Below, in pieces: positions 13,480 to 27,620 of a DNA stretch of 30,381 bases. Under the pieces are notes generated by a model that made no database searches, had not been told where the DNA came from, and saw nothing but the letters and a program-made list of their open reading frames with translations. Made by a program: the position numbers and the translations under genes. The stretch is from positions 1 to 30,381 of IMG/VR virus record IMGVR_UViG_3300031857_000945, one strand, 5' to 3'. The DNA is from a virus. Within the stretch, counting starts at the first letter, position 1, and each line of letters begins with the position of its first letter.

Positions 13480-13845
13480 TTACGCCTCTAGTAGTTCTAG
13501 AGTTCCCTCGGTTGGGACGCCCGAATCCATGCCGACAATGCCTACGCCGTTCTGAAACTCGACAAGAGCAACCCTTACGGCGTCAAAACTTGACTTGGAA
13601 TCTACGTCAAATCCAGCCTTGGCTAGACCCTTGACGGCCCTCTTCCATTCTGGGAGGGATAGCGTAGGAACCCTCTTTACGGGTGCTTCCTCAACAGTGT
13701 CATCCTCTACAACCTCTGCAACAACTTCAACGTCGCCAACCTCTACCGGCCTTTGTGCGGCGGCAGCGATCTTGCGGCCAACCTCTTCCTTATCCGTGTC
13801 AACCACAGGTGAACCCTCCCAGGTGAAATCTTCTGAACTAGTCAT
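13480..13845 (-). CDS. Small acidic protein with peptidoglycan-binding-like C-terminus
   Basis: 121 residues. The first ~60 are acidic and disordered (VEVGDVEVVAEVVEDD). The last ~55 (LPEWKRAVKGLAKAGFDVDSKSSFDAVRVALVEFQNGVGIVG...GVPTEGTLELL) resemble the three-helix PG_binding_1 repeat, which normally reads AV..FQ...GL..DG..G..T...L. The gene is predicted leaderless: an extended -10 lies six bases before the ATG and no Shine-Dalgarno site is present. It follows the holin-like gene, so a wall-binding or lysis-accessory role is plausible. The domain match is by eye only. Confidence 0.55.
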   Translation of the reverse strand: MTSSEDFTWEGSPVVDTDKEEVGRKIAAAAQRPVEVGDVEVVAEVVEDDTVEEAPVKRVPTLSLPEWKRAVKGLAKAGFDVDSKSSFDAVRVALVEFQNGVGIVGMDSGVPTEGTLELLEA

Positions 13846-13851
13846 GGACCA

Positions 13852-13860
13852 ATTGTATCA
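13852..13860 (-). promoter_or_regulatory. Leaderless-type extended -10 promoter
   Basis: TGA TACAAT on the minus strand, then six bases (TGGTCC) and the ATG at 13845. The TGA of the extended element is also the stop codon of the upstream membrane-protein gene. Confidence 0.65.
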
Positions 13861-14139
13861 CAATCCGAACACCAAGTGGAAGAACAGCCACACAATCAGC
13901 GTGCCCACTAGCGACTTCCAAATGATACTCCATACTCTATTCTTCGATAGCGTTCCCAACTGCACCTGCTCTGACAACGTATCTTCTGCCTCTGTGTGAA
14001 CTACGGACACAGCCTCTAAGCCTGCGAAGATGAGCCCCCAGCCCAGCCACATAACAAAGAAGTTCTCAAAAGCAATGCCCAGCATGACAACAGCAAATGC
14101 TAGCGTGGCTAATATAGCCATCAACTTCTTCTTAGTCAA
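13858..14139 (-). CDS. Small membrane protein, holin candidate
   Basis: 93 residues, with three likely membrane segments: KLMAILATLAFAVVMLGIAF (~5-24), FVMWLGWGLIFAGLEAVSVV (~29-48) and WSIIWKSLVGTLIVWLFFHLVFGL at the C-terminus, with a charged loop between the second and third. Size and topology fit class I holins. The start chosen is TTG at 14139, ten bases after AAGGAGG; the longer frame begins inside that site. It overlaps the ANL gene's stop. Other explanations include an inner-membrane exclusion protein. No endolysin is adjacent apart from the possible wall-binding protein downstream. Confidence 0.6.
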   Translation of the reverse strand: MTKKKLMAILATLAFAVVMLGIAFENFFVMWLGWGLIFAGLEAVSVVHTEAEDTLSEQVQLGTLSKNRVWSIIWKSLVGTLIVWLFFHLVFGL

Positions 14140-15292
14140 CGGGAACAAACCTCCTTGGGATGGAGAATGTAGGCAATCCGTATGCCTCTAGGTCGCCATT
14201 CACAGAATCCTGGTCGATCTCTCCAATGTGGGCACAAACCAAGTTTCCATCCTCTACATAGACAGACTTAATATCGTACCCGCGCGAGCGCAGGTGGTCC
14301 CTCACTTGAACTGGAAACACCGAGAACCCGCTAACCTTTGCCTTCGTTCTGCCGACTAACTTGATCAACTCGCCGCTAGTCTCAACGATATCACCAGTGT
14401 CCACAAAGTTCTTCTTCTCATATCCCCTGTCAGTAACTGTGCCGACTGTCATCTCGCTAAACAGAACCGCGCCCGATCCCTCCACCATAGGGGCCATCCA
14501 AAAGAAGGGCTCATCTGACGACCTTGCACCTAGAATTCCGGCTTCGGTACATGAGTAAACATCCACAATTGCCGGGTTGTCAAAAACAACCTTGGCCTGG
14601 GCGATAGAGTCCTCGCCTAGCGGTCCCGATGCTGACAGGAAGCAGGCAAACTTGCGCCTATAACCGGCCTCCCACAACTTGTTTACAACCATACCCTTAG
14701 TCATGATTGAAAGATCGTCATCCTGAACATGCGCGGCCAGAGTCTCTGCTGTTGGTCTTGCCGTCATCATTGAGATGGGAACCTCTAGAGCAAGGGTCGC
14801 TAGATAAGAGAGAATCGTGGTTTGTAGTGGTGCGGTCATGAATGCCCTTCCGACAAGGAGGGCTGGCATCGTCTTTTCCGCCCAATCGATCATCTTCTCA
14901 ATCATATCGGGCTGCATGAAGTAAGGCTCTACGATGTTAATCTTGGGCATGCCAGAGGTGCCAGATGACACGCATGCCAGCGAGCCGTTCGGATAAAACT
15001 CAGAGTAAGCCACAAACTGCCTCGTAAGGTGATCCGCTAGACCACCGCCAAAGAAGTTGGGCAGGGCAAATACCTTTGCGCCCCCTGCGAGCAGGCCCAG
15101 TACCTGTGGAATCTGGTGGGGGTCACCGGTAACGGAAAGAACGATTGTCTCGCCTTCTACGCCAGTCATGGCGCTGGTGGCGACCTCTCTGAACTCTGCT
15201 CCTGAAACCACAGAGCCGTCAATTCTGATTGGGTCGCTCATGCGACTAATTTTGTCAATCAGGTACAGTGGGTCACGCACTTGGCCTACCAT
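14132..15292 (-). CDS. Adenylate-forming (ANL) enzyme: AMP-dependent synthetase/ligase family
   Basis: 386 residues, short for the family (usually 500+). It should activate a carboxylate with ATP as an acyl-AMP. Family motifs are clear: A3 P-loop SSGTSGMPK (109-117), A5 YSCTEAG (246-252), A7 VDTGD (297-301) and the A8 hinge GRTKAKVSGFSVFP (314-327). The N-terminal subdomain is reduced, and the C-terminus stops at SIPRRFVPVD, just short of where the A10 catalytic lysine (GK motif) should be. The start is ATG at 15292 after AGGAGG with seven bases spacing. It overlaps the cupin-like gene upstream and the membrane-protein gene downstream. Substrate unknown; an ANL enzyme in a tail-fibre operon is unusual. 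Confidence 0.85.
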   Translation of the reverse strand: MVGQVRDPLYLIDKISRMSDPIRIDGSVVSGAEFREVATSAMTGVEGETIVLSVTGDPHQIPQVLGLLAGGAKVFALPNFFGGGLADHLTRQFVAYSEFYPNGSLACVSSGTSGMPKINIVEPYFMQPDMIEKMIDWAEKTMPALLVGRAFMTAPLQTTILSYLATLALEVPISMMTARPTAETLAAHVQDDDLSIMTKGMVVNKLWEAGYRRKFACFLSASGPLGEDSIAQAKVVFDNPAIVDVYSCTEAGILGARSSDEPFFWMAPMVEGSGAVLFSEMTVGTVTDRGYEKKNFVDTGDIVETSGELIKLVGRTKAKVSGFSVFPVQVRDHLRSRGYDIKSVYVEDGNLVCAHIGEIDQDSVNGDLEAYGLPTFSIPRRFVPVD

Positions 15293-15689
15293 AGCCAAGC
15301 CTCCTGTACATTTCACCCATTGTTTCTACCTCGCCATTTGGTCCGTAGGCTAGAGGTGGCTTGTGGGCATAGTTAAACGTAATGAACAGGGTATACGCTG
15401 GCCTCTTTGAAACGGCAGCGATCTTGTGAAGCCTGTCGTTGTTCATCCTGTGAACGTTGAACATACCTCGCTTTGCGCGCCTAAATGGAGAGGTAACATT
15501 TCGCATCTCATATAGGTCCTCTGTGTATGAGCCTAGCAGACCAATGGATACAAAGTCACATCCATGTTGGTGAGGAAACGCCCTCTCGTCGTCGGCCACA
15601 GTGATCTTGTTCAGCCTTACGCTAAACCTACTGTTGTGAACGAACTGAACAAAAGACATGCTAGAGCCGCCTCTGTCGTTAAACTTCAT
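15273..15689 (-). CDS. Cupin-like small protein
   Basis: 138 residues. An HxH motif (PHQHGCDFVSIGLLGSYTEDLYE) is followed by a later HR...LHKI and a YTLFITF strand; this pattern of H-x-H, Gly-Tyr-Thr-Glu, then a third His and a Trp/Tyr-Thr-Leu strand is seen in small cupin-fold phage and bacterial proteins, where the histidines bind a metal. The start chosen is ATG at 15689, overlapping the preceding 36-codon ORF as ATGA. It could be a dioxygenase, isomerase or a binding protein. The fold is moderately certain, the reaction unknown. It overlaps the ANL gene by 20 bases, so the two are probably made together. Confidence 0.55.
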   Translation of the reverse strand: MKFNDRGGSSMSFVQFVHNSRFSVRLNKITVADDERAFPHQHGCDFVSIGLLGSYTEDLYEMRNVTSPFRRAKRGMFNVHRMNNDRLHKIAAVSKRPAYTLFITFNYAHKPPLAYGPNGEVETMGEMYRRLGYGRPSA

Positions 15690-15796
15690 GCCTGATCTGC
15701 CTCCGCATCTAGTCCCCAAAAGCCGTCAACCGCTGGTGGCTCTGGCGGTGTTACGCTTAATTCTGCTCTAACCCAAGGCCTTGTTGTGCCCTCCAT
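15686..15796 (-). CDS. 36-residue peptide between GNAT-like and cupin-like genes
   Basis: A short ORF that exactly fills the gap: its ATG overlaps the GNAT-like gene's stop (TAATG) and its TGA overlaps the cupin-like gene's ATG (ATGA). The peptide is Pro/Trp-rich and acidic at the end (TRPWVRAELS, TPPEPPAVDGFWGL, AEADQA). No Shine-Dalgarno site better than TGGGGGC is visible, so translation would be coupled. It could be a small structural peptide, or a substrate for the neighbouring enzymes, as discussed in the findings. Confidence 0.6.
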   Translation of the reverse strand: MEGTTRPWVRAELSVTPPEPPAVDGFWGLDAEADQA

Positions 15797-16218
15797 TATG
15801 CCCCCATTCCCAATGCTGCAATCCCGTCAAGGATGCGCCTATTGTAAACCCACTTTGGTTCAATCAGACCCGGTGGCACGCTGCCCTCCTTGGGAATAGC
15901 CAGCCCCTTTTCAATCGCAATCGCAATCTCTTCTGGGCCCCTTGTGCTGATATACACCTTTTTCAAACCAAGTTCTTCCCTGCCCCACTTCTGCAAATCC
16001 TTGAAAATGCCCAGTGACCTAAACTCCTTGTCAGTCCAGGTAATTCCACCCATGCTGCAATCGTTGGTACAGTTGTCACACAGACGATATCTAAATGCAG
16101 TGTTGTAACTTGCCATCGAGACAATCCTGCCATCGATGATGGCTACTGCAATGTGGACGCCATCTGCGAAGAGCCCAGAAGTCCTAGCCTCTTCTTCGGT
16201 TAAGAACCTGAATTCCAT
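15796..16218 (-). CDS. GNAT-like acetyltransferase (probable)
   Basis: 140 residues. The pattern HIAVAIIDGRIVSMASY (beta2-beta4), GGITWTDKEFRSLGIFKDLQKWGREELGLKKVYIST (beta4, the acyl-CoA loop region and helix alpha3) matches the N-acetyltransferase (GNAT) order; the usual R/Q-x-x-G-x-G/A loop is represented by EFRSLGIF and is weak. A Cys cluster CDNCTNDC (47-54) precedes it, which could bind a metal. The ATG overlaps the upstream stop as TAATG. It is probably co-translated with the ANL, cupin and peptide genes. Acyl-donor and acceptor are unknown. Confidence 0.5.
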   Translation of the reverse strand: MEFRFLTEEEARTSGLFADGVHIAVAIIDGRIVSMASYNTAFRYRLCDNCTNDCSMGGITWTDKEFRSLGIFKDLQKWGREELGLKKVYISTRGPEEIAIAIEKGLAIPKEGSVPPGLIEPKWVYNRRILDGIAALGMGA

Positions 16219-16721
16219 TATACACCACCCTGCAAGTTTGCAACTGCCTCTTCCAGGTCATCTACCCTCTGGCTAATTCCCGTGATGTAGTCGTACAGAG
16301 ACTTATATCTCACACCGCTAGAGCCTAGAAGGAATGAGTATGCAAACGCTACTTGGGTCAGAATCAGGAAGGCCAACTTGTTTACGTCCTCGTCATACCT
16401 TCCATACTGAGAGAACGCCAGTAGTGCTTGTTGAACAGGAGCGTTCATGGAAATAAACTCCTGCTCGTTAATAACCCCATCTTGGGTTGCTGCGCGAAGG
16501 CCGATAAGCGTGTTTTGAAGCAGCGCGATGAGCGTCTGCTTCTCCTGCAATTCCTGTGCTGATGCCTGTGGGAACAGTGTGTAGTATTCCTGAATCTCCG
16601 TAGCATCGGCGTCACGAACTGGCTCTACAACTACGCCCTCACTGTCAGTCTTGTAAATCCTTTGTGAAACCGTGTCGAACTTAACTGTGTTGCCATCATA
16701 GGCAAGCCACTGGACTAGCAT
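16218..16721 (-). CDS. Hypothetical tail-region protein
   Basis: 167 residues, not recognised. It opens with MLVQWLAYDGNTVKFD, a short beta motif, then is mostly helical (ASAQELQEKQTLIALLQNTLIGLRAA; FLILTQVAFAYSFLLG) and ends in a leucine-rich amphipathic helix ISQRVDDLEEAVANLQ, a likely short coiled coil. This coiled coil may trimerise. It follows GGAGG closely and overlaps the GNAT-like gene by one base. A chaperone or fibre-attachment role is possible. Confidence 0.6.
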   Translation of the reverse strand: MLVQWLAYDGNTVKFDTVSQRIYKTDSEGVVVEPVRDADATEIQEYYTLFPQASAQELQEKQTLIALLQNTLIGLRAATQDGVINEQEFISMNAPVQQALLAFSQYGRYDEDVNKLAFLILTQVAFAYSFLLGSSGVRYKSLYDYITGISQRVDDLEEAVANLQGGV

Positions 16722-16724
16722 TAC

Positions 16725-17651
16725 TTACGCCTCCGCTCTTACGATGATATATGGTCCACCCGGTCTTGTTGGTAGCGGGTTTGATGCTGCGTGTGAAGCG
16801 TTGTTTGCGCCGCCGCAGGTGCCCCATGCCGAATACGGTTGAGCCACCGCGCTAGTAGTCGGATACGCATATGGAACCGTAGTTCTGTACTTCTTGCCAT
16901 TGACATAAACCTCTACATCATTGTGATAGTTTAAGGTTGTGTCACCAGTTAGCGTGTAAGTCTCTCCACCAAAGAAGGCATTCCTAATTCTGCCAACATA
17001 TCCGAAGGCGGGATTGACAATTCCATAGGGCCAGTAGACCACACCACCCAGGAACGCCTTGCTTGGAAGCAAGTCCCCAACATTCGGAATGTCCTGAATT
17101 GCAGGCCTCATTGTAACCAATTCACCAATTTCGTTGCTCGACGAGCCCTGATATCCGTGGACAACGTCTGCGGAAGCCCACGGAGTTCCGGCCTCATTGT
17201 GAACTGGAAGGGCGGATCGGAATCCAATAGCGACCCAATGCTTGGACGCGTCAGTTTGAACTTCTGAACTAATTGGAACGTACCTACTTAGAAACACTGA
17301 CGAACTTGGGCTTCCATAAGAGTTTGCTCTGTTTCCAGCATTGGTACCAGTAACCCTCCACCAGAATACGTCGTTGAAAACCGCATACTGAAATGAAACA
17401 GCAGTTGATGCAGTTAGCGCGTGGCCGAATGAGATGAAGTGCTGAACCCCGTTTAGGTAAACCGGGTAGTTTCCATTTGCATCGAAGGCGGTTGCCTGCA
17501 TGTTTACTGTCAGAGTGGTGCCCCCGACTGTAGATGAATAAATGTTAGCAGCATTAGTCCAGCCAGCACCGCCAAGTGCATTGCGAATCTCTGTAATCAC
17601 GTTCGACGCTGTCGCGTCCGTTGGGTTCACAAACTGGTCTGAAAATGCCAT
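16725..17651 (-). CDS. Minor tail protein, probable
   Basis: 308 residues, beta-rich and lacking Cys-based motifs except one CGG near the C-terminus. The N-terminus (FSDQFVNPTDATASNVITEIRNALGGAGW) resembles the helical start of some phage fibre-associated proteins that carry a per-subunit domain, followed by strands around FQYAVFNDVFWWRVTG, KHWVAIGFRSALP and GYVGRIRNAFFGGETYTLTG. The C-terminus is a Pro/Gly-rich tail (PLPTRPGGPYIIVRAEA). It sits between fibre genes. Structural role by synteny. Confidence 0.55.
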   Translation of the reverse strand: MAFSDQFVNPTDATASNVITEIRNALGGAGWTNAANIYSSTVGGTTLTVNMQATAFDANGNYPVYLNGVQHFISFGHALTASTAVSFQYAVFNDVFWWRVTGTNAGNRANSYGSPSSSVFLSRYVPISSEVQTDASKHWVAIGFRSALPVHNEAGTPWASADVVHGYQGSSSNEIGELVTMRPAIQDIPNVGDLLPSKAFLGGVVYWPYGIVNPAFGYVGRIRNAFFGGETYTLTGDTTLNYHNDVEVYVNGKKYRTTVPYAYPTTSAVAQPYSAWGTCGGANNASHAASNPLPTRPGGPYIIVRAEA

Positions 17652-18068
17652 TTATTCGTCAATCTCCCTGAAATCATCTGTACCTAAGTATACCACGGCG
17701 ACGGGATAGGTGTCCTGACCAGAATACTGAGTCTCGATCATTGGAGAGATTGGTGCTGATGTCATAGCGGGGTTTAGATTTCTACCAAATGTCCCATGTT
17801 CAAGTGCCGATGCCTGCCCGTTGGTTGTGTGTGCGAAAACGGAGAGATCGGCAAAAGGCAGTGAGTTAGACATGCTGAACGTCGCAATCGGTGTATCGAC
17901 TCCGATATTTGGAAATCCAGCGGTGTTGTAAATCTCTAGGTTGTAAGAGGACGCCTGATGCGGAAACGAGCCTGTTGAAGAAATAGGTCTAAAGATTACC
18001 CAAATAGTTCCTGAAATCTGAGTGTTGGCCGTTCCACCGGCCTGATAGGATGGTCCTGCGGCACCCAT
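17652..18068 (-). CDS. Hypothetical minor tail protein
   Basis: 138 residues, beta-rich, Thr/Ser/Gly-rich (AGGTANTQISGTIWVIFRPIS; IGVDTPIATFSMSNSLPFADLSVF; DTYPVAVVYLGTDDFREIDE). Its ATG overlaps the upstream stop (TAATG) after a GGAG site, and the next gene's ATG follows its TAA directly. It has no recognised domain. A small fibre or tip component is likely from position. Confidence 0.5.
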   Translation of the reverse strand: MGAAGPSYQAGGTANTQISGTIWVIFRPISSTGSFPHQASSYNLEIYNTAGFPNIGVDTPIATFSMSNSLPFADLSVFAHTTNGQASALEHGTFGRNLNPAMTSAPISPMIETQYSGQDTYPVAVVYLGTDDFREIDE

Positions 18069-19072
18069 TATCTGGCTCCGTTCGACTCTAGTGTAACTGG
18101 ATACAGGGTTCCAGAAATGTTCGAGTTGAAATAAAGGGCTACACCCGCGACGCTGGCAAAACCAAGCCCGCCAGACATGCCCTCGATTTTCAAATAGTAG
18201 TTAGCATCATCCTCTGCCTGTGGATAAAGACCGTTTGCACTCAGAGCAAGTCGCTCGCGCCCTGTCACAGCAGTTGTAACAAATAGGCTTCCACCAGTTG
18301 TGTACACCTGTGATGCAATCGGAAGGCCAGTGTCTTTTGTGAACGTTCCGTTGTCGATGACAAAGGATGAGTCATTTACGACATCATATGGGTTGCTAGT
18401 GTATGTAAAGTCAGCCCTATACATTCTCTTCGTGCCTGGACCTGGAAGATATGGATCGCTGTCAATACCCCATGAGTACAGAGCAATTCCACCGACCTCT
18501 GCCCCTGTGCCAGTGACAGTAGCATATGCATTAGCCACATTAAACAGCGTGTTGTACGGTTGCGATCCAATGAAGGTACCAGTACACGACCTAAGGCTTA
18601 ATTCGATAACCTTACGGTAGTTTGATGTCGATGAACCTGCTGACTTAAGCATAACCTTGTATCCGGTTTTATTTACAAGGAACAAAACGTCCACGTTCGT
18701 GCCCGGCGGAAAACTAGATGGAACCAGGGCCTCAGCGTAAGTGGGGAAACCCTGGTAGGGCAGGGGGAAACCTGGCACTGCGGCTGCTTGCAACTTCATT
18801 GACTTTCCGCCGTTGAAGAACTTGAATGTTACACCGTCTGTGGCGTTTGCCGTAGGCGATGACATCTGCATGCTAAGATTATCGCTAATCTTCATTCTCA
18901 CAAGAATCCTCTGGAATGGAGAATTCTGTGTGTACATCCCACTGGTTCCGTTGTAGAGATAGTGAGTTCCGTTCCAACTTGTTAGAGCGGAGCCAGACAG
19001 ACCAACGCTGTCCGTGGCATGGACGCCAGTAAAGACTTCCAGACCATTCTTTAAAGTGGGATTAAGAGGCAT
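18068..19072 (-). CDS. Minor tail / fibre protein, LamG-like (probable)
   Basis: 334 residues. Strand-rich with short WNGTHYLYNGTSG and FQRILVRMKISDN segments, a VTFKFFNGGKSMKLQ stretch and GTNVDVLFLVNKTGYKVMLKS, reminiscent of jelly-roll (laminin-G/concanavalin) modules as in the 11995-13473 protein. The C-terminal part (YYLKIEGMSGGLGFASVAGVALYF) forms another beta region. It overlaps the 3' end of the collagen-like fibre by 11 bases with GAGGTG eight bases before the ATG. Confidence 0.5.
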   Translation of the reverse strand: MPLNPTLKNGLEVFTGVHATDSVGLSGSALTSWNGTHYLYNGTSGMYTQNSPFQRILVRMKISDNLSMQMSSPTANATDGVTFKFFNGGKSMKLQAAAVPGFPLPYQGFPTYAEALVPSSFPPGTNVDVLFLVNKTGYKVMLKSAGSSTSNYRKVIELSLRSCTGTFIGSQPYNTLFNVANAYATVTGTGAEVGGIALYSWGIDSDPYLPGPGTKRMYRADFTYTSNPYDVVNDSSFVIDNGTFTKDTGLPIASQVYTTGGSLFVTTAVTGRERLALSANGLYPQAEDDANYYLKIEGMSGGLGFASVAGVALYFNSNISGTLYPVTLESNGAR

Positions 19073-20894
19073 TCAGGGTACACCTCAGAGATAGCGTAAC
19101 ATCGGTTGGTGGTGTGCCTCCTGGGTTACTTGTAACCTCAAACTGAATAAAACTGTTTGCAGCAACTGAATATCCAAGTGTAAACGTCTGATAGGTTGAC
19201 GAAGCGGTTAGTGTCTGCTCTGTTCCAAGCAGCACTCCATTCCTTAGAAGCCTAAAGTTAACGTTAGCGGTACCTGCTGTGCAGGCGATAGTCGCAGAAT
19301 GAATGGTTCCGCCGAGGTCTAGAGGAATCTTTGCAGAGTAGACCTTCTGTGATAGTGTTGCAATGCCTCCAAGTGTAAGAACCGATGGGTTTACTCCGTC
19401 TGCACCGTCAGAACCGTCTGCGCCTGCCACACCCTGAATTCCCTGAATCCCTTGGATTCCCTGATCTCCTGTATCGCCCTTGATGCCCTGGATACCTTGT
19501 GGGCCAGAGTCTCCCGTATCACCCTTTAGACCTTGGATTCCCTGAGGTCCAATATCTCCCGTGTCACCCTTGACTCCCTGAATACCTTGGGCACCTTGGA
19601 TTCCTTGGATTCCCTGTGGTCCAACAAGACTTACGCCAGCGGGCCATGTGGTTGCCTTTGGTCCGTAAATGAAATTGGTGGTTGTATTAATGTAGAACTC
19701 TCCATCGAATCCTACGCCGTTAGCCGGTGCGCCTGCGCCATAGCGCAGAGTTGTTCCGTCAATCCCGTCTGTGCCGTTCGTTCCCGCTGGTCCCTGAATA
19801 CCCTGAGAACCCGTGGTTCCCTGAATACCCTGAACGCCCTGGATTCCCTGTGGGCCAACCAGTGATGTTCCAGCAGGCCATGTGCCAGCAGCCTTAGGTC
19901 CGAACAGGAAGTTTGTGTTGGTGTTAATGAAGAAGTCGCCGTTAACTCCAAGACCGCTTGAAGGATTAGTGTTGCCATATAGGATCGTCTTACCATCGGC
20001 ACCGGCGGTACCTGGAATACCCTGTGGTCCAGCCACTGTTGATGCAGCACCGGTGGCTCCTGTATCACCGGTATCACCCTTTAGACCCTGAATGCCCTGG
20101 ATACCTTGAATACCCTGGCTTCCTGTGTCACCCTTATCGCCCTTGTCACCCTTTAGGCCCTGGGCACCTGTGTTACCAGTGTCTCCCTTTAGACCCTGGA
20201 TTCCCTGGATACCTTGGTCGCCCTTATCTCCCTTTAGACCCTGAATTCCTTGAATGCCCTGGATGCCTTGATCGCCAGTGTCACCCTTTAGTCCTTGAAC
20301 TCCCTGGATACCCTGAATACCCTGAGGGCCTCGAATCTGACCAACATTTACCCACTGCGTGTCTGCCCACACAAGTCCGTCACCAGTTGAACCAATGCCA
20401 ACCTCTGCTTCGCCAAGAATCCACATATCTCCCGGCTGGGCTGCTTCCAAAGAGATTTCGTCCCAGGTTGCGGTGCCCTTCACGACAATACCGGAGCCAT
20501 CCTGTCCGTCGATTCCTGGGGCTCCTGGCTCACCACGGAAGGTGCCTACGTCTACCCATTCGGTGGAATCCCAAACCCAAAGGTTGTCTCCTACAACATA
20601 CGATGCGTCACCGTTGCCAGATGGGTATGCGGCAATAAGGTCACCGGAGGTTGGGAAGGAGCCAGCGATTCTGCCGTATCCGATTGTCTTTAGCGCATAG
20701 GTTCCATCTGTTCTACGGTAGAGGACTTGATACGCTGTACCGCCCGCCGTCGAAACGTCTGCTAGATCGTTGAGGCGTAGCGAGGAGCCCGCTGTATATG
20801 CGGGAGTTCCACCATTTGAGGTAGGCGTTGATCCTGGCTGTCCAGGTACAGATGTGATACCCGACAATTGGCTTGGGTCATATACATGGGACAT
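19062..20894 (-). CDS. Collagen-like tail fibre protein
   Basis: 610 residues. The middle (~190-300 and ~420-510) is built from Gly-X-Y repeats, mostly GPQGIQGIQG, GLKGDTGD and GLKGDKGD, which fold as a collagen triple helix and trimerise fibres. Two near-identical inserts interrupt the collagen (NGDFFINTNTNFLFGPKAA.TWPAG and DGEFYINTTTNFIYGPKA.TWPAG), and two similar modules near the N-terminus contain DNLWVWDSTEWVDVG and GLVWADTQWVNVG. The C-terminal ~100 residues (from TLGGIATLSQKVYS) form a globular head, a candidate receptor-binding domain. The ATG lies exactly six bases after an extended -10, so the mRNA is probably leaderless. Confidence 0.9.
   Translation of the reverse strand: MSHVYDPSQLSGITSVPGQPGSTPTSNGGTPAYTAGSSLRLNDLADVSTAGGTAYQVLYRRTDGTYALKTIGYGRIAGSFPTSGDLIAAYPSGNGDASYVVGDNLWVWDSTEWVDVGTFRGEPGAPGIDGQDGSGIVVKGTATWDEISLEAAQPGDMWILGEAEVGIGSTGDGLVWADTQWVNVGQIRGPQGIQGIQGVQGLKGDTGDQGIQGIQGIQGLKGDKGDQGIQGIQGLKGDTGNTGAQGLKGDKGDKGDTGSQGIQGIQGIQGLKGDTGDTGATGAASTVAGPQGIPGTAGADGKTILYGNTNPSSGLGVNGDFFINTNTNFLFGPKAAGTWPAGTSLVGPQGIQGVQGIQGTTGSQGIQGPAGTNGTDGIDGTTLRYGAGAPANGVGFDGEFYINTTTNFIYGPKATTWPAGVSLVGPQGIQGIQGAQGIQGVKGDTGDIGPQGIQGLKGDTGDSGPQGIQGIKGDTGDQGIQGIQGIQGVAGADGSDGADGVNPSVLTLGGIATLSQKVYSAKIPLDLGGTIHSATIACTAGTANVNFRLLRNGVLLGTEQTLTASSTYQTFTLGYSVAANSFIQFEVTSNPGGTPPTDVTLSLRCTLNAS
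19420..20340 (-). repeat. Collagen-type Gly-X-Y repeat tract (low-complexity DNA)
   Basis: Within the fibre gene, DNA coding 'Gln-Gly-Ile', 'Lys-Gly-Asp' and 'Thr-Gly-Asp' units recurs with mixed synonymous codons (CCCTGGATTCC, CCTTGAATACC and similar on the plus strand). It is a variable-number repeat prone to length change and alignment errors. Confidence 0.85.
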
Positions 20895-21608: not shown

Positions 21609-21970
21609 TATCCTGCGATACCCGCCTTGACGGTAATCGTGCCCTCCATAATTGCTTCCTTCTCGCCGCCACCGGACGTAAGCACTAGGTCGTAGTTGTA
21701 CGTTCCTACTGCCCAAAGCACTGTTGTGGCAATTGGCACATTGACAGTGATGACACCACCTGCCGCGTTTGTGATTGAGGCAAACGGGTTATTTGAGTTG
21801 TTATATGTGCTGTGCATCGGTGCGGCAGCGCCAGTTGAATCTGCGACACCGATACGCACCGTGTAACCAGTTAGGTTGAACGGAGTTGTCTCCGTCTCGT
21901 CTGTGTAGTACGTCAGAACAAACTTTAGCGTTCTGTTCGTGGTGGCGGATAGGTTCACTTCATTACTCAT
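21608..21970 (-). CDS. Small beta-rich tail protein
   Basis: 120 residues with the pattern of an Ig-like or BppU-N-type beta sandwich: TLKFVLTYYTDETETTPFNLTGYTVRIGV, then GGVITVNVPIATTVLWAVGTYNYDLVLTSGG and MEGTITVKAG. Small proteins of this type attach fibres to the baseplate in other phages. The ATG overlaps the ribonucleotide reductase stop (ATGA) and lies exactly six bases after an extended -10 within the end of that gene; there is no Shine-Dalgarno site, consistent with leaderless translation. Confidence 0.55.
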   Translation of the reverse strand: MSNEVNLSATTNRTLKFVLTYYTDETETTPFNLTGYTVRIGVADSTGAAAPMHSTYNNSNNPFASITNAAGGVITVNVPIATTVLWAVGTYNYDLVLTSGGGEKEAIMEGTITVKAGIAG

Positions 21971-24018
21971 ACTAGAATTGTATCACTTTCCACGATTTCA
22001 TCAGTAGAACCGAGGCCAGGAATCTCACAGACATCGGTGGTGCAATACTTGTCACCCTCAGCCTCACGGCCATTGGCGTAGAGCAGGGCCTTGTCGATCT
22101 GGCCCAACTTGCCAACATAGGACTCGTACTGCTCCTGCGTGATCTGCGTGTACGGCTGCTGTTTGTAGACGCCACCCATCGGTAGGAAGGATACGGTCTT
22201 AAGTTTGCCCTCGTACATCTTTAGCACCGTGGCGATGTGCTTGCCCTCAGTCTCGGGGTCAAAGGAAACCGTAACCGAAACAGAGTTATCAGCCCAGTAC
22301 CTTTGCGTCTCCGACGCCAGAGCAATCTTCTCGAAGATGGTAACCTCGCGCTCGCTGCGCTTGTTATCGGACTTGATCGGGAAGTAGGCAACCTTTGTGT
22401 TAGCGGAAACCAAGTCCTTCTCAACCGTGTAGCCAGCCTCTTCCAGGGCCTTCACAATAGGCTCGGTGTCAGAGAATCGAACCGCACGGAGGAAGTATTC
22501 CCCACCAGGAGTCCAGTGAACACCGGGGCTTGCGCCACTCAGTAGGCTCACTGTGCCAGATGGCTTTACCGTGGTTGTCTTGATCGACTCACGGATTCCA
22601 AGCCATTCTGAATACTTCTTGTCCAGAACTTGAACGTAGTCATATCCGGTGTTGAACCAGTCGCGCAGGGTGGTCAGACCGTGAATGTCCGAGAACTGCG
22701 AAATTCCTGTCATCGAAGTACCGATGCGACGGTTGCGCTGAATGACGGCGTTCGTCTCAGGCCAGTGCGTGGGAAGCAGGGTAATCGACTTTGCGTAGAG
22801 GTAGGCGAACTTCAAGGTGCGCTGCAAATCCTCTTCGTCCTCAATGTTGTTCAAGTGAATCTCAACGAGGTTGCAAAGTTCGAATGACTCCAAGGTGATC
22901 TCGGCGCAAGGGTTGGTACCCTTAGCACGCGAGTCCTTGTGGTTAGCAGGATCGACCATGCGGCCATACGCCTGCGATGTATCGAGCCACATAAACCCAG
23001 GCTCACCGTTATTGAGAATCCTTTGAGCGGCATCCTCGTAATTAGGCACCGAGTCGCTGTCCAGGGACAGGGTGTTGTTGCTCATCCAGCCCCAACCCGT
23101 CTCGAAGTGGTTGCGCTCAGGGAAAACCTCAGCGTTCTTCAAGTCGATGAACCAAACGTCATCGCTACCACCCAAAGCAATCGTTGCGGAGCGGCGAACG
23201 TTGCCAGCCACCACGCAGGTGCCGATAAGGTTCACAACATCAACGATAGCACGCGAGTCAAAGAGTTCACCCGCGCGACTACCGATGACGCGGCGGATAT
23301 CCTCGTGCAACTTCATAAGTGGGCCAGGACCCGACGAGGTACCACCAAAGCCCTTGATGGGCTCGCCAGCCGCACGAATACGGGAGTAGTCGAATTCCTG
23401 CGGGCGACCGTCTGTACGCAGGAGTGAGTTGATCAGTAGTCTAACACTCTCTGCCCAGCCCTCGCGTGAGTCAGGGATTGAATACACCTGTACCTCACCC
23501 TCGGGCTCACGAATTACGATGTTCTTGGCTGCGCCACGGGTATCAAAGCCAACACCGATACCGCACATGAGCGCATCTGCCACCCACCCAAAGATTGAAC
23601 CAGGATCGTTCCTGGTCATATCATCGGTGGAGATAAAAGAGCAATTGTAAAGCGCAGCCGTCAGGCCGCGCTTGTGTACCGCTTCGGTACCGGTGACCCA
23701 CAGGCCACGACCGGGCGGGGTCCACTTCAACTGGAACATGCGATCAAAGGCTTCCTGGGCGCTAGCCTGGGCCTTCCTGTCGTTCCAGGGGAGTCGATTG
23801 GCCTTGCACCAATCCTTCTGAATCGAGTACATACCCTCGATCACACGACGGCAAACTTCGGGCCAAGTCTCCTTGGTGCCGTCCTCCTTCACGCGCGAGT
23901 AGGTGCGAATGAAGATCAACTCTCCAACCGAGTTGCCTCCCGCATCTGTGTTGCCCCAGGGGGTCTGGATCACGTTATATGGTGCGATGAACTCGTCAGA
24001 GAGTCTAAAAGATAGCAA
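21967..24018 (-). CDS. nrdJ: Adenosylcobalamin-dependent ribonucleoside-triphosphate reductase (class II)
   Basis: 683 residues. It reduces ribonucleotides to deoxyribonucleotides using B12-generated thiyl radical chemistry, oxygen-independently. The active-site residues match the Lactobacillus-type monomeric enzyme by spacing: C126 (YNCSF), thiyl C371 with E373 (GTNPCAEITLESF) and C382 (ELCNL), exactly 11 residues after C371. The C-terminus has a CX4C pair (C659, C664 in KYCTTDVCEIP), the shuttle cysteines. The start is TTG at 24018 preceded by GGAACGGGAC. It is the first gene of the leftward block and sits before structural genes, which is an unusual place. Confidence 0.93.
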   Translation of the reverse strand: MLSFRLSDEFIAPYNVIQTPWGNTDAGGNSVGELIFIRTYSRVKEDGTKETWPEVCRRVIEGMYSIQKDWCKANRLPWNDRKAQASAQEAFDRMFQLKWTPPGRGLWVTGTEAVHKRGLTAALYNCSFISTDDMTRNDPGSIFGWVADALMCGIGVGFDTRGAAKNIVIREPEGEVQVYSIPDSREGWAESVRLLINSLLRTDGRPQEFDYSRIRAAGEPIKGFGGTSSGPGPLMKLHEDIRRVIGSRAGELFDSRAIVDVVNLIGTCVVAGNVRRSATIALGGSDDVWFIDLKNAEVFPERNHFETGWGWMSNNTLSLDSDSVPNYEDAAQRILNNGEPGFMWLDTSQAYGRMVDPANHKDSRAKGTNPCAEITLESFELCNLVEIHLNNIEDEEDLQRTLKFAYLYAKSITLLPTHWPETNAVIQRNRRIGTSMTGISQFSDIHGLTTLRDWFNTGYDYVQVLDKKYSEWLGIRESIKTTTVKPSGTVSLLSGASPGVHWTPGGEYFLRAVRFSDTEPIVKALEEAGYTVEKDLVSANTKVAYFPIKSDNKRSEREVTIFEKIALASETQRYWADNSVSVTVSFDPETEGKHIATVLKMYEGKLKTVSFLPMGGVYKQQPYTQITQEQYESYVGKLGQIDKALLYANGREAEGDKYCTTDVCEIPGLGSTDEIVESDTILV
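21977..21985 (-). promoter_or_regulatory. Leaderless-type extended -10 inside end of nrdJ
   Basis: TGA TACAAT on the minus strand, then six bases (TCTAGT) and the ATG at 21970. The element overlaps coding sequence, so it may be partly fortuitous. Confidence 0.5.
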
Positions 24019-25308: not shown

Positions 25309-25899
25309 TTGACAATCGTTGTGGCAGTAGAACATAAGGATGGCGTGCTAGTTGCATGCGACAGTCAGGTAACTGACTCGGGAACATCATTCTTGATGCA
25401 CAGGTCACAGAAAAAGATTGGTACGGTTGGTCCGTACATCATCGGCGCGGCGGGTCGTCTGAGGACGGGACAAGTTCTCCTAAACTCAGACGGCCTGCCC
25501 ACGCCACCACAACGAGCCTCGGACGAGGCTCTAAACAAGTTCATGATCACCAAGTTCGCAGCAGCCGCTCAGAACACTCTGAAAGACGCTGGCGTTGAGC
25601 AGGTGGTGGATCACGAGAGACTCCTTACTGAATCAGAGTTGATCGTATGCGTGCAGGGTCGCGCATACATGGTAGGCGAGGACTACGCGATCATGCGTGC
25701 AGGAGATTCGACTTCCATCGCTAGCGGGATTGCCATTACTGGCTCTGGATACCCCTTTGCGCTCGGTGCCTACCATGCCATGAGCAAAGCCACTAGAAAG
25801 ATGTCAGCCAAAGACATCGCTACGACTATGGTTGAGGCAGCGATCAAGTGGGATCAAGGCTGCGGTGGCGAAATCGAGTTCTACGAACAGTCCAGATGA
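25309..25899 (+). CDS. HslV/proteasome-beta-like Ntn hydrolase
   Basis: 196 residues. The start is TTG with AGGAGG 12 bases upstream; the Met is followed by Thr, so removal of Met would expose the catalytic threonine of the proteasome/HslV family. After Met removal, T1 begins TIVVAVEHKDGVLVACDSQ, placing D17 exactly at the family position, and KKIG at 34-37 supplies the Lys33 counterpart. Later GSGYPFALGAYHAM and the end motif WDQGCGGEIEFYEQ also match HslV. It should be a self-assembling peptidase. No HslU, Mpa or other ATPase partner is seen beside it. Promoter elements overlap an inverted repeat. Confidence 0.8.
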   Translation: MTIVVAVEHKDGVLVACDSQVTDSGTSFLMHRSQKKIGTVGPYIIGAAGRLRTGQVLLNSDGLPTPPQRASDEALNKFMITKFAAAAQNTLKDAGVEQVVDHERLLTESELIVCVQGRAYMVGEDYAIMRAGDSTSIASGIAITGSGYPFALGAYHAMSKATRKMSAKDIATTMVEAAIKWDQGCGGEIEFYEQSR

Positions 25900-25936: not shown

Positions 25937-26335
25937 ATGACACAATACTTCCTGATCACAGGGGCCAGGGACTGGCCTGAGAGCCATGCTCACATCATCA
26001 CTGATCTGCTTGACTCGCACCTGCGCTGGCACCCCGATTCCACAATGCTCAATGGGATGTGCCCGACTGGTGCCGACAAGATCGCCTATGAGTGGGCGGT
26101 CGCCAATGGCGTCCCTGTTGAGAAGCACGCCGCAGACTGGACAAAGGGCCGCAGCGCGGGCCCACAGCGCAACACAGCGATGGTAAATAGACTTCTGGAA
26201 GAAGGGTCCAGTATCGCATTTGCGTTTTTCTACGGGCCTAAGAACGCCTCGCGCGGTACCATGAACACTTACCGAACTCTCGTAGCCCGAGGGGTCGAAC
26301 CTATCGAAAGGCAACTCGACTATGTACAAGTATAA
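25937..26335 (+). CDS. DUF2493/YspA-type SLOG (Rossmann-like) protein
   Basis: 132 residues. Clear family pattern: FLITGARDW at 6-14, a LNGMCPTGADKIAYEWAVANGVPVEKHAADW core and GRSAGPQRNTAMV, typical of DUF2493, a SLOG-fold group. SLOG proteins bind nucleotide or nucleotide-derived ligands; in phages this family is common, but its role is not settled. It is the first gene of a nine-gene operon, probably leaderless, and overlaps the nuclease gene by 14 bases. Possible sensor for the operon's nucleotide-related enzymes. Confidence 0.8.
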   Translation: MTQYFLITGARDWPESHAHIITDLLDSHLRWHPDSTMLNGMCPTGADKIAYEWAVANGVPVEKHAADWTKGRSAGPQRNTAMVNRLLEEGSSIAFAFFYGPKNASRGTMNTYRTLVARGVEPIERQLDYVQV

Positions 26336-26681: not shown

Positions 26682-26857
26682 TGGACTCAGAGGATAGACT
26701 GATCGCTCTCACAGAGCATTACGGTGTTGATGCTCTACAATCAGCGTACTTCAAACTTGAACTGGGCATTGCAACGTCTGAGGAACAGATTGCGATGTGT
26801 GAGTTCATCAAGGTACTCCGCGATCTACTGAAAGAGGTAAACGACTACAATGACTAA
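26681..26857 (+). CDS. 58-residue hypothetical protein
   Basis: A small, acidic, helical protein (DSEDRLIALTEHYGVDALQS, then SEEQIAMCEFIKVLRDLLKE). It begins at ATG 26681, overlapping the nuclease stop (TGATG), and its end overlaps the start of thyX at 26850. Not recognised. The overlap on both sides shows it is translated in the operon. Confidence 0.7.
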   Translation: MDSEDRLIALTEHYGVDALQSAYFKLELGIATSEEQIAMCEFIKVLRDLLKEVNDYND

Positions 26858-27620
26858 GATCGATGTACTGGACAAGGGCTACGTTCGCCTGGTCGATCAC
26901 ATGGGTAATGATCTAAGGATCGTCAACGCAGCCCGTGTGTCCTACGACAAGGCCTCAACAAATTGGGGTGACCGTGACGCCAGCCTCCTAAACTTTCTCA
27001 TGCGAGAGGGGCACACAAGCGTCCTGAGGCATGCCTCCCTCACCTTTGAGTGCTACGCTCCGCTCATGGTTGCTAGACAGTGGTATAAGCACGCTGTTGG
27101 CTCGACCTATCTGGAAGATCAGAACGGCTGGAACGAGTCTAGCCGCAGGTATGTAACTGAAAACGAAGAGTTCTACCTCCCCCGCGAAAATGAGTGGAGA
27201 AGTAAGCCTGCGAATTCGAAGCAGGGCTCAGGAGAGCCCATTGATCTCGAAACGGCGTTCCACTACATGAACTATTTGGACTCTTATCAGAAGCAGGGAC
27301 TGGAATGGTACACTCGCGCTATGGAATGTGGGATCGCTCCCGAACTAGCACGACTGTTTTTGCCTGCGAATGGGCTGTATGTCCGATATTACTGGACGAC
27401 TAGCCTAGCGGCACTCATCCATTTTCTGAATCTTAGGGACGAAAGTCACGCTCAGTACGAAATTCAACTATATGCGAAGGCGCTTCGTGAACTTGCGGAG
27501 CCGATCTTCCCCGAAACATTCAAGGCGGTGTTCGGTGAACAATTGGGAAGGCAGTGGGTCGAAGAGTCTCTCGGCCCGCTCAACAAGACATTGGATGAGG
27601 ATTGGACAGGAAATGGCTAA
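26850..27620 (+). CDS. thyX: FAD-dependent thymidylate synthase
   Basis: 256 residues. It makes dTMP from dUMP with FADH2 and methylenetetrahydrofolate. Family hallmarks are the HTSVLRHASLTFECYAPLMVARQW block (55-78) and NESSRRY at 95-101. The ThyX motif normally reads RHRxxSxxxxSxRY; here the RHR is YKH (79-81), and an insert of about nine residues (TYLEDQNGW) precedes NESSRRY. The C-terminal helices (RLFLPANGLYVRYYWTTSLAALIHFL) carry the expected nucleotide-contact region. The gene is in the middle of an operon with a deaminase, which supplies dUMP. Confidence 0.92.
   Translation: MTKIDVLDKGYVRLVDHMGNDLRIVNAARVSYDKASTNWGDRDASLLNFLMREGHTSVLRHASLTFECYAPLMVARQWYKHAVGSTYLEDQNGWNESSRRYVTENEEFYLPRENEWRSKPANSKQGSGEPIDLETAFHYMNYLDSYQKQGLEWYTRAMECGIAPELARLFLPANGLYVRYYWTTSLAALIHFLNLRDESHAQYEIQLYAKALRELAEPIFPETFKAVFGEQLGRQWVEESLGPLNKTLDEDWTGNG

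Follow-up and report, generated by a model that had tools for sequence, protein, structure and literature searches.

A tail-fibre module accompanied in four viral loci by genes for predicted GNAT-fold and ANL-fold proteins and, in three of them, a conserved micropeptide

The window, by which we mean the whole 30,381-base stretch of viral DNA analysed here (positions 1 to 30,381 of IMG/VR record IMGVR_UViG_3300031857_000945), carries a run of minus-strand genes in which a collagen-repeat fibre gene is followed by genes for proteins of 334, 138, 308 and 167 aa, and these in turn by genes for a GNAT-fold protein, a 36-residue peptide, a cupin, an ANL-fold protein and a small membrane protein. We compared this arrangement with three further IMG/VR contigs, L001, L008 and L057; three of the four loci are related to each other, and the four records may be incomplete. 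Along the minus strand of the window the features are:

19062–20894, minus strand: collagen-repeat tail fibre, 610 aa, first in the series of fibre genes (PF01391, 4e-31; PHROG tail fibre families)
18068–19072, minus strand: 334-aa fibre-module gene, with a homologue in L057
17652–18068, minus strand: 138-aa fibre-module gene, assigned by its position within the module
17687–17692, minus strand: −10-like TATACT with TG before it, upstream of the 308-aa gene (consensus match only)
16725–17651, minus strand: 308-aa fibre-module gene, conserved together with the cassette
16218–16721, minus strand: 167-aa gene, last of the fibre module, with a putative coiled-coil C-end
15796–16218, minus strand: predicted GNAT-fold protein, 140 aa (AF2 model, Foldseek, homologues in L001, L008 and L057)
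15686–15796, minus strand: 36-residue peptide, conserved in L001 and L057 directly after GNAT
15273–15689, minus strand: predicted single-domain cupin, 138 aa, cysteine-dioxygenase-like (PHROG 4786; conserved His)
14132–15292, minus strand: predicted ANL-fold (adenylate-forming-like) protein, 386 aa (Foldseek, HMM, motifs)
13858–14139, minus strand: small membrane protein, its start overlapping the ANL stop

The stop codon of the 167-aa gene and the start codon of the GNAT gene share the bases TAATG, as do the GNAT stop and the peptide start; the peptide stop and cupin start overlap as ATGA at 15689–15686, and the cupin gene, whose stop ends at 15273, overlaps the ANL gene, which begins with ATG at 15292, by 20 nt. 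The first-pass annotation had reported four coupled genes with such overlaps, and all four open reading frames lie where it placed them or a few bases away. The coupling stands, and the chain is one gene longer than described: the membrane protein starts at a TTG (14139), preceded by AAGGAGG, that overlaps the ANL stop. Comparison with L001 and L057 indicates that the reading frames of the cassette are genes and not products of chance.

Beside the fibre operon lies a gene for a B12-dependent class II ribonucleotide reductase (21967–24018, minus strand) that shares 57% identity with the enzymes of Actinomycetia phage DSL-LC01 and Mycobacterium phage Gaia, and the portal of the window is 59% identical to those of Streptomyces phages. 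Taken together, these identities make an actinobacterial host likely. Further along, on the plus strand, are an open reading frame with a short match to a proteasome subunit (25309–25899; PF00227, E 1.2e-6, above the cut-off, residues 3–47), a YspA/SLOG-family protein (25937–26335; PF10686, 7e-14) and a ThyX thymidylate synthase (26850–27620; PF02511, 1e-41). On the other side of the cassette is a 121-aa protein (13480–13845, minus strand), the C-terminal part of which is conserved in L001 (62%); by eye it looks like a peptidoglycan-binding repeat, with no family match.

In L001, a 71.9-kb contig, the order of the GNAT, peptide, cupin and ANL genes is that of the window, and a second cupin and the membrane protein come after them; identity to the window is 37% for GNAT, 56% for the peptide, 69% for the cupin and 73% for ANL. 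In L008 (12.1 kb), GNAT is followed by a Trp-rich open reading frame of 53 residues and then by ANL, without a cupin. In L057 (102.8 kb), unlike the other loci, ANL precedes GNAT: fibre genes of 334, 308 and 167 aa are followed by ANL, GNAT and the peptide, and no cupin match was found on that contig. The block is thus no rigid unit of four genes: GNAT and ANL are constant (4/4 loci), whereas the homologous peptide occurs in three of the four and the cupin in two, and ANL is relocated in L057. The membrane protein, which has a weak match to PHROG 3555 (E 0.006), is present in the window, L001 and L008, with none adjacent in L057, and is probably not core.

Directly upstream of the cassette, in every one of the four loci, stands the 167-aa fibre-module gene, which bears out the tie to the fibre genes proposed earlier. 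Identity of the 308-aa gene to the window is 36% in L001, 26% in L008 and 32% in L057, and the L057 homologue of the 334-aa gene is 29% identical. The first-pass annotation had also described the block as inserted in a fibre operon, which the comparison does not show: we saw no locus that has the fibre module without the cassette, which makes the cassette look like part of the module, nor did we see the cassette apart from it. On the L057 contig we detected no homologue of the window portal or of the PHROG 12 portal at the sensitivity used, so that this contig either represents another lineage or has no portal region; on this basis, more than one lineage appears to have the fibre module and the cassette.

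Outside these four records, we found no 308- or 167-aa fibre gene and no GNAT, ANL or cupin in 21 loci with a related portal, which form 18 groups at 95% identity and each extend 7 kb or more beyond the portal on its upstream side. Searches of 50,697 phage records by tblastn gave no match to ANL, GNAT, cupin or peptide, nor to the 308-, 334- and 167-aa fibre-module genes; genome contigs scanned with ANL and cupin profiles yielded none, and viral contigs scanned with cupin, ANL and 167-aa fibre-gene alignments yielded no loci beyond the four. In the literature we found no phage cassette of this kind described. Enzymes beside phage fibre genes are usually annotated singly; here, apparently in two lineages of phages, such genes recur as a linked set, along with their fibre module and a conserved micropeptide.

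The micropeptide lies directly after GNAT in the window, L001 and L057 and follows the pattern MEG...W...PP...D..WGLD over 36 residues; the L057 version reads MEGRPVWIVATEATPPPSGADSRWGLAMDADED. Identity across the three loci is 45–56% (window–L001 56%, L057 45–47%), and in each of the three pairs the similarity exceeds that of all 5000 shuffles (z 6.3–8.4), which marks the peptide as a genuine gene under conservation. That it might be a precursor peptide had been proposed from gene position; conservation now adds to this idea, and composition detracts from it, no Cys, Ser, Thr or Lys being invariant across the three homologues. In L008 the micropeptide position is taken by the 53-residue Trp-rich open reading frame (1624–1785), which has W-x-G-x-x-W repeats and which we rejected as a homologue of the peptide (shuffle p 0.67).

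The window GNAT has no match in Pfam or PHROGs, and a sequence search of the PDB with its profile returned weak or chance matches only. Structure prediction is more informative. Using an AF2 model built on the four homologues (pLDDT 70), Foldseek gave 31 PDB matches at E≤0.001, nearly all to named acetyltransferases, and the top matches are acetyltransferases with a probability of 1.00 and TM of about 0.5–0.6. The BFVD likewise gave acetyltransferase matches, including GNATs of other phages. The predicted GNAT fold, which had been suspected from the letters alone, is therefore supported by both structure databases. Compared with the motif that binds the pyrophosphate of acyl-CoA, Q/R-x-x-G-x-G/A, all four homologues have R/Q-x-x-G-I-F, in which the first half fits and the last position is Phe. 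The cassette protein has its fold in common with other phage GNATs, but differs from them in an extra C-D-x-C-x3-C, invariant among the four homologues and a mark of this family, and in the coupling of its gene to those for a micropeptide and an ANL.

For the cupin, the window protein matches PHROG 4786 ('cysteine dioxygenase') at E=1.5e-13 and carries the pattern H40-x-H42 ... H80-x3-N84; H40, H42 and H80 are invariant in three sequences, in which the motif-1 position is without Glu. Neither Pfam nor NCBIfam gave a match, and its profile found no credible match among PDB sequences, only weak or chance ones. The PHROG match and the conserved histidines support its identification as a cupin, probably a CDO-like one, in agreement with the earlier cupin-like label, on a sequence rather than a structural basis. 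The HMM match and the HxH...H histidines are common to the PHROG 4786 phage cupins and the window protein, yet the latter is a single short domain of 138 aa, compared with a 252-position model. The second cupin of L001 (7171–7566, between ANL and the membrane protein) matches the same family at E 1.9e-11 and is 38% identical to the first, possibly through duplication within the cassette.

The ANL model is poor (pLDDT 55); the top PDB matches from Foldseek are all ANL enzymes (probability 1.00, E 3e-14), and a profile of the four homologues aligns to the GrsA adenylation domain as far as residue 508. Against PF00501, the L057 protein scores 47.0 bits (E 2e-12), above the gathering cut-off of 29.9, while those of L008 (28.9 bits) and the window (12.8 bits) fall below it. 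The A3 P-loop, A5 Glu, A7 Asp and A8 Arg are kept in all four proteins despite identities of 24–29%, as is the A8 Lys (Arg in L057); of the TGD motif, L057 keeps the Asp alone and L008 has NGD. The best NCBIfam match is TIGR02372, 4-coumarate--CoA ligase (window E 0.011, L057 E 3e-8), an enzyme involved in preparing the photoactive yellow protein chromophore. Its model, with 386 positions, is similar in length to the phage protein, but the scores of 14.5 (window) and 32.8 (L057) are far under the curated cut-off of 334.7 bits, and the phage ANL is therefore not a member.

Fold search and motifs thus support the ANL fold named in the first-pass annotation. Its simple corollary, that the protein activates a carboxylate, is weakened: the A10 lysine (GrsA Lys517) is missing in all four proteins, the chains of which end just before A10, even though the other motifs are kept. 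The adenylation domain of GrsA uses Lys517 (A10) for adenylation and Lys434 (A8) for thiolation (PMC11253843), and CysK A3, an NRPS domain without the A10 lysine, failed to accept L-Asn and is held to be inactive (PMC7966384). The phage proteins share with the ANL superfamily (PF00501; GrsA) the fold and motifs A3, A5, A7 (Asp) and A8, but stop near residue 508 of GrsA, the window protein at its exact equivalent, and so before Lys517. We also considered a ribosomal frameshift into the membrane-protein frame, which would add an A10-like 'PLTKKKL', and rejected it, as this is found in the window only and is absent from L001, L008 and L057.

Rates of change differ between the genes of the cassette. 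Between the window and L001, pN/pS is lowest for ANL (0.23) and the cupin (0.30) and higher for GNAT (0.57) and the peptide (0.58). In this comparison ANL comes close to the portal in its conservation (73% versus 76% identity; pN/pS 0.23 versus 0.27), and these values indicate clear purifying selection on it. Given this selection and the missing A10 lysine, the protein is needed and yet is unlikely to carry out adenylation in the normal manner. A family with nucleotide-site motifs but without the adenylation lysine makes a well-defined biochemical puzzle. GNAT and the 167-aa gene are each 37% identical between the window and L001, compared with 69–73% for the cupin and ANL. GNAT thus diverges like the adjoining fibre gene, perhaps because it co-evolves with the fibres or because a recombination joint lies near the peptide.

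Our preferred reading, to which we give a probability of roughly 0.4, takes the block for a fibre-linked cassette for acyl modification, with the fibres or the micropeptide as its target. The enzyme activities, the substrates, the target and the biological role that we infer are as follows. The cassette would be an accessory of the tail-fibre module, with GNAT, a small companion protein or open reading frame and a divergent ANL as its constant parts and the CDO-like cupin as an optional one, and its proteins would most likely act in the infected cell, before assembly. ANL would bind or handle an acyl-adenylate or a related activated acyl group; the cupin, where present, would oxidise the acyl precursor or a thiol; and GNAT would transfer the acyl group to an amine, either on a fibre protein or at the N-terminus of the M-E-G micropeptide, the latter being suggested only because the three peptides have no Cys, Ser, Thr or Lys in common. 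The modified product would then join or tune the receptor-binding apparatus. That the genes are neighbours is, however, no proof that it is the fibres that are modified. If fibres or peptide are indeed acylated, phage adhesins would carry a self-encoded chemical modification.

A natural pathway with a comparable set of folds is that of SB-203208 in Streptomyces, which has SbzL (ANL), SbzI (GNAT) and SbzM (cupin) in one set; SbzL, a carrier protein and SbzI put 2-sulfamoylacetate on an amine, and SbzM makes the precursor of this acid from cysteine (PMC6331615). The likeness between SbzL-SbzG/K-SbzI plus SbzM (SB-203208/altemicidin) and the phage set is one of folds only. The Sbz pathway leads to an antibiotic and involves an aldehyde dehydrogenase as well as acyl carrier proteins (PMC6331615), whereas the phage set has an ANL without A10, an optional cupin, a position in a fibre operon and no carrier protein that we could find: PF00550 had no match in the four records, which may be fragments. 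A host carrier protein could serve in place of a phage-encoded one. It is tempting to speculate on a carrier-free acyl relay, in which the A10-less ANL and GNAT would work with a peptide of about 33 residues that replaces the carrier, as acceptor or scaffold, and a modified micropeptide or fibre would serve host recognition; we regard this as a long shot.

Other readings of the same genes have to be weighed. Because GNAT, ANL and cupin folds are known from small-molecule pathways (PMC6331615, PMC2922099), and a membrane protein follows the cassette in the window, L001 and L008, the cassette could modify a host molecule (envelope, lipid or small metabolite), for example changing the receptor so that later phages are excluded, and share the fibre operon just for late expression. 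The cassette lies behind the same fibre gene in all four loci, however, including L057, on whose contig no portal homologue was detected, we identified no gene related to sugars or lipids within the cassette, and the four records gave no carrier-protein match, so that we find this explanation rather unlikely.

Fibre chaperones are typically encoded directly after fibre genes, which is where the cassette lies. It is conceivable, if doubtful, that the enzymes have lost their activity, the GNAT-fold protein and the A10-less ANL now being fibre assembly chaperones or parts of the virion and the peptide a fibre component. The ending of all four ANLs before the A10 lysine would fit such a role, as would the resemblance of the W-x-G-x-x-W repeats in the small L008 open reading frame to those in an L057 fibre-region open reading frame; the retention of the ANL A3, A5, A7 and A8 residues across 24–29% identity and of three His in the cupin speaks against it. 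Less probable still is that the micropeptide is the precursor of a RiPP-like product, matured by GNAT, ANL and cupin and released by the phage. A short conserved peptide whose translation is coupled to that of GNAT in three loci is what one might expect of such a system, but the three peptides conserve none of Cys, Ser, Thr and Lys and have no recognisable division into leader and core, neither a protease nor an exporter was identified, and the L008 open reading frame at the peptide position is non-homologous.

Turning to expression, the window has nine copies of a −10-like motif, TGnTAYAmT, shortly before start codons, where 1.06 would be expected, and five of the nine lie 6–8 nt ahead of the ATG of a likely gene (window 21970, 20894, 13845, 11221 and 9269, minus strand). 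This placement suggests leaderless transcripts. The genes from the 308-aa gene on, with the cassette among them, have a candidate promoter in the TATACT at 17687–17692. L001 has a promoter-like TGGTATAAT, again a consensus match only, 6 nt before the GNAT start, and GNAT is there possibly the first gene of a transcript. The TGnTAYAmT motif also occurs in L001/L004 and in L008.
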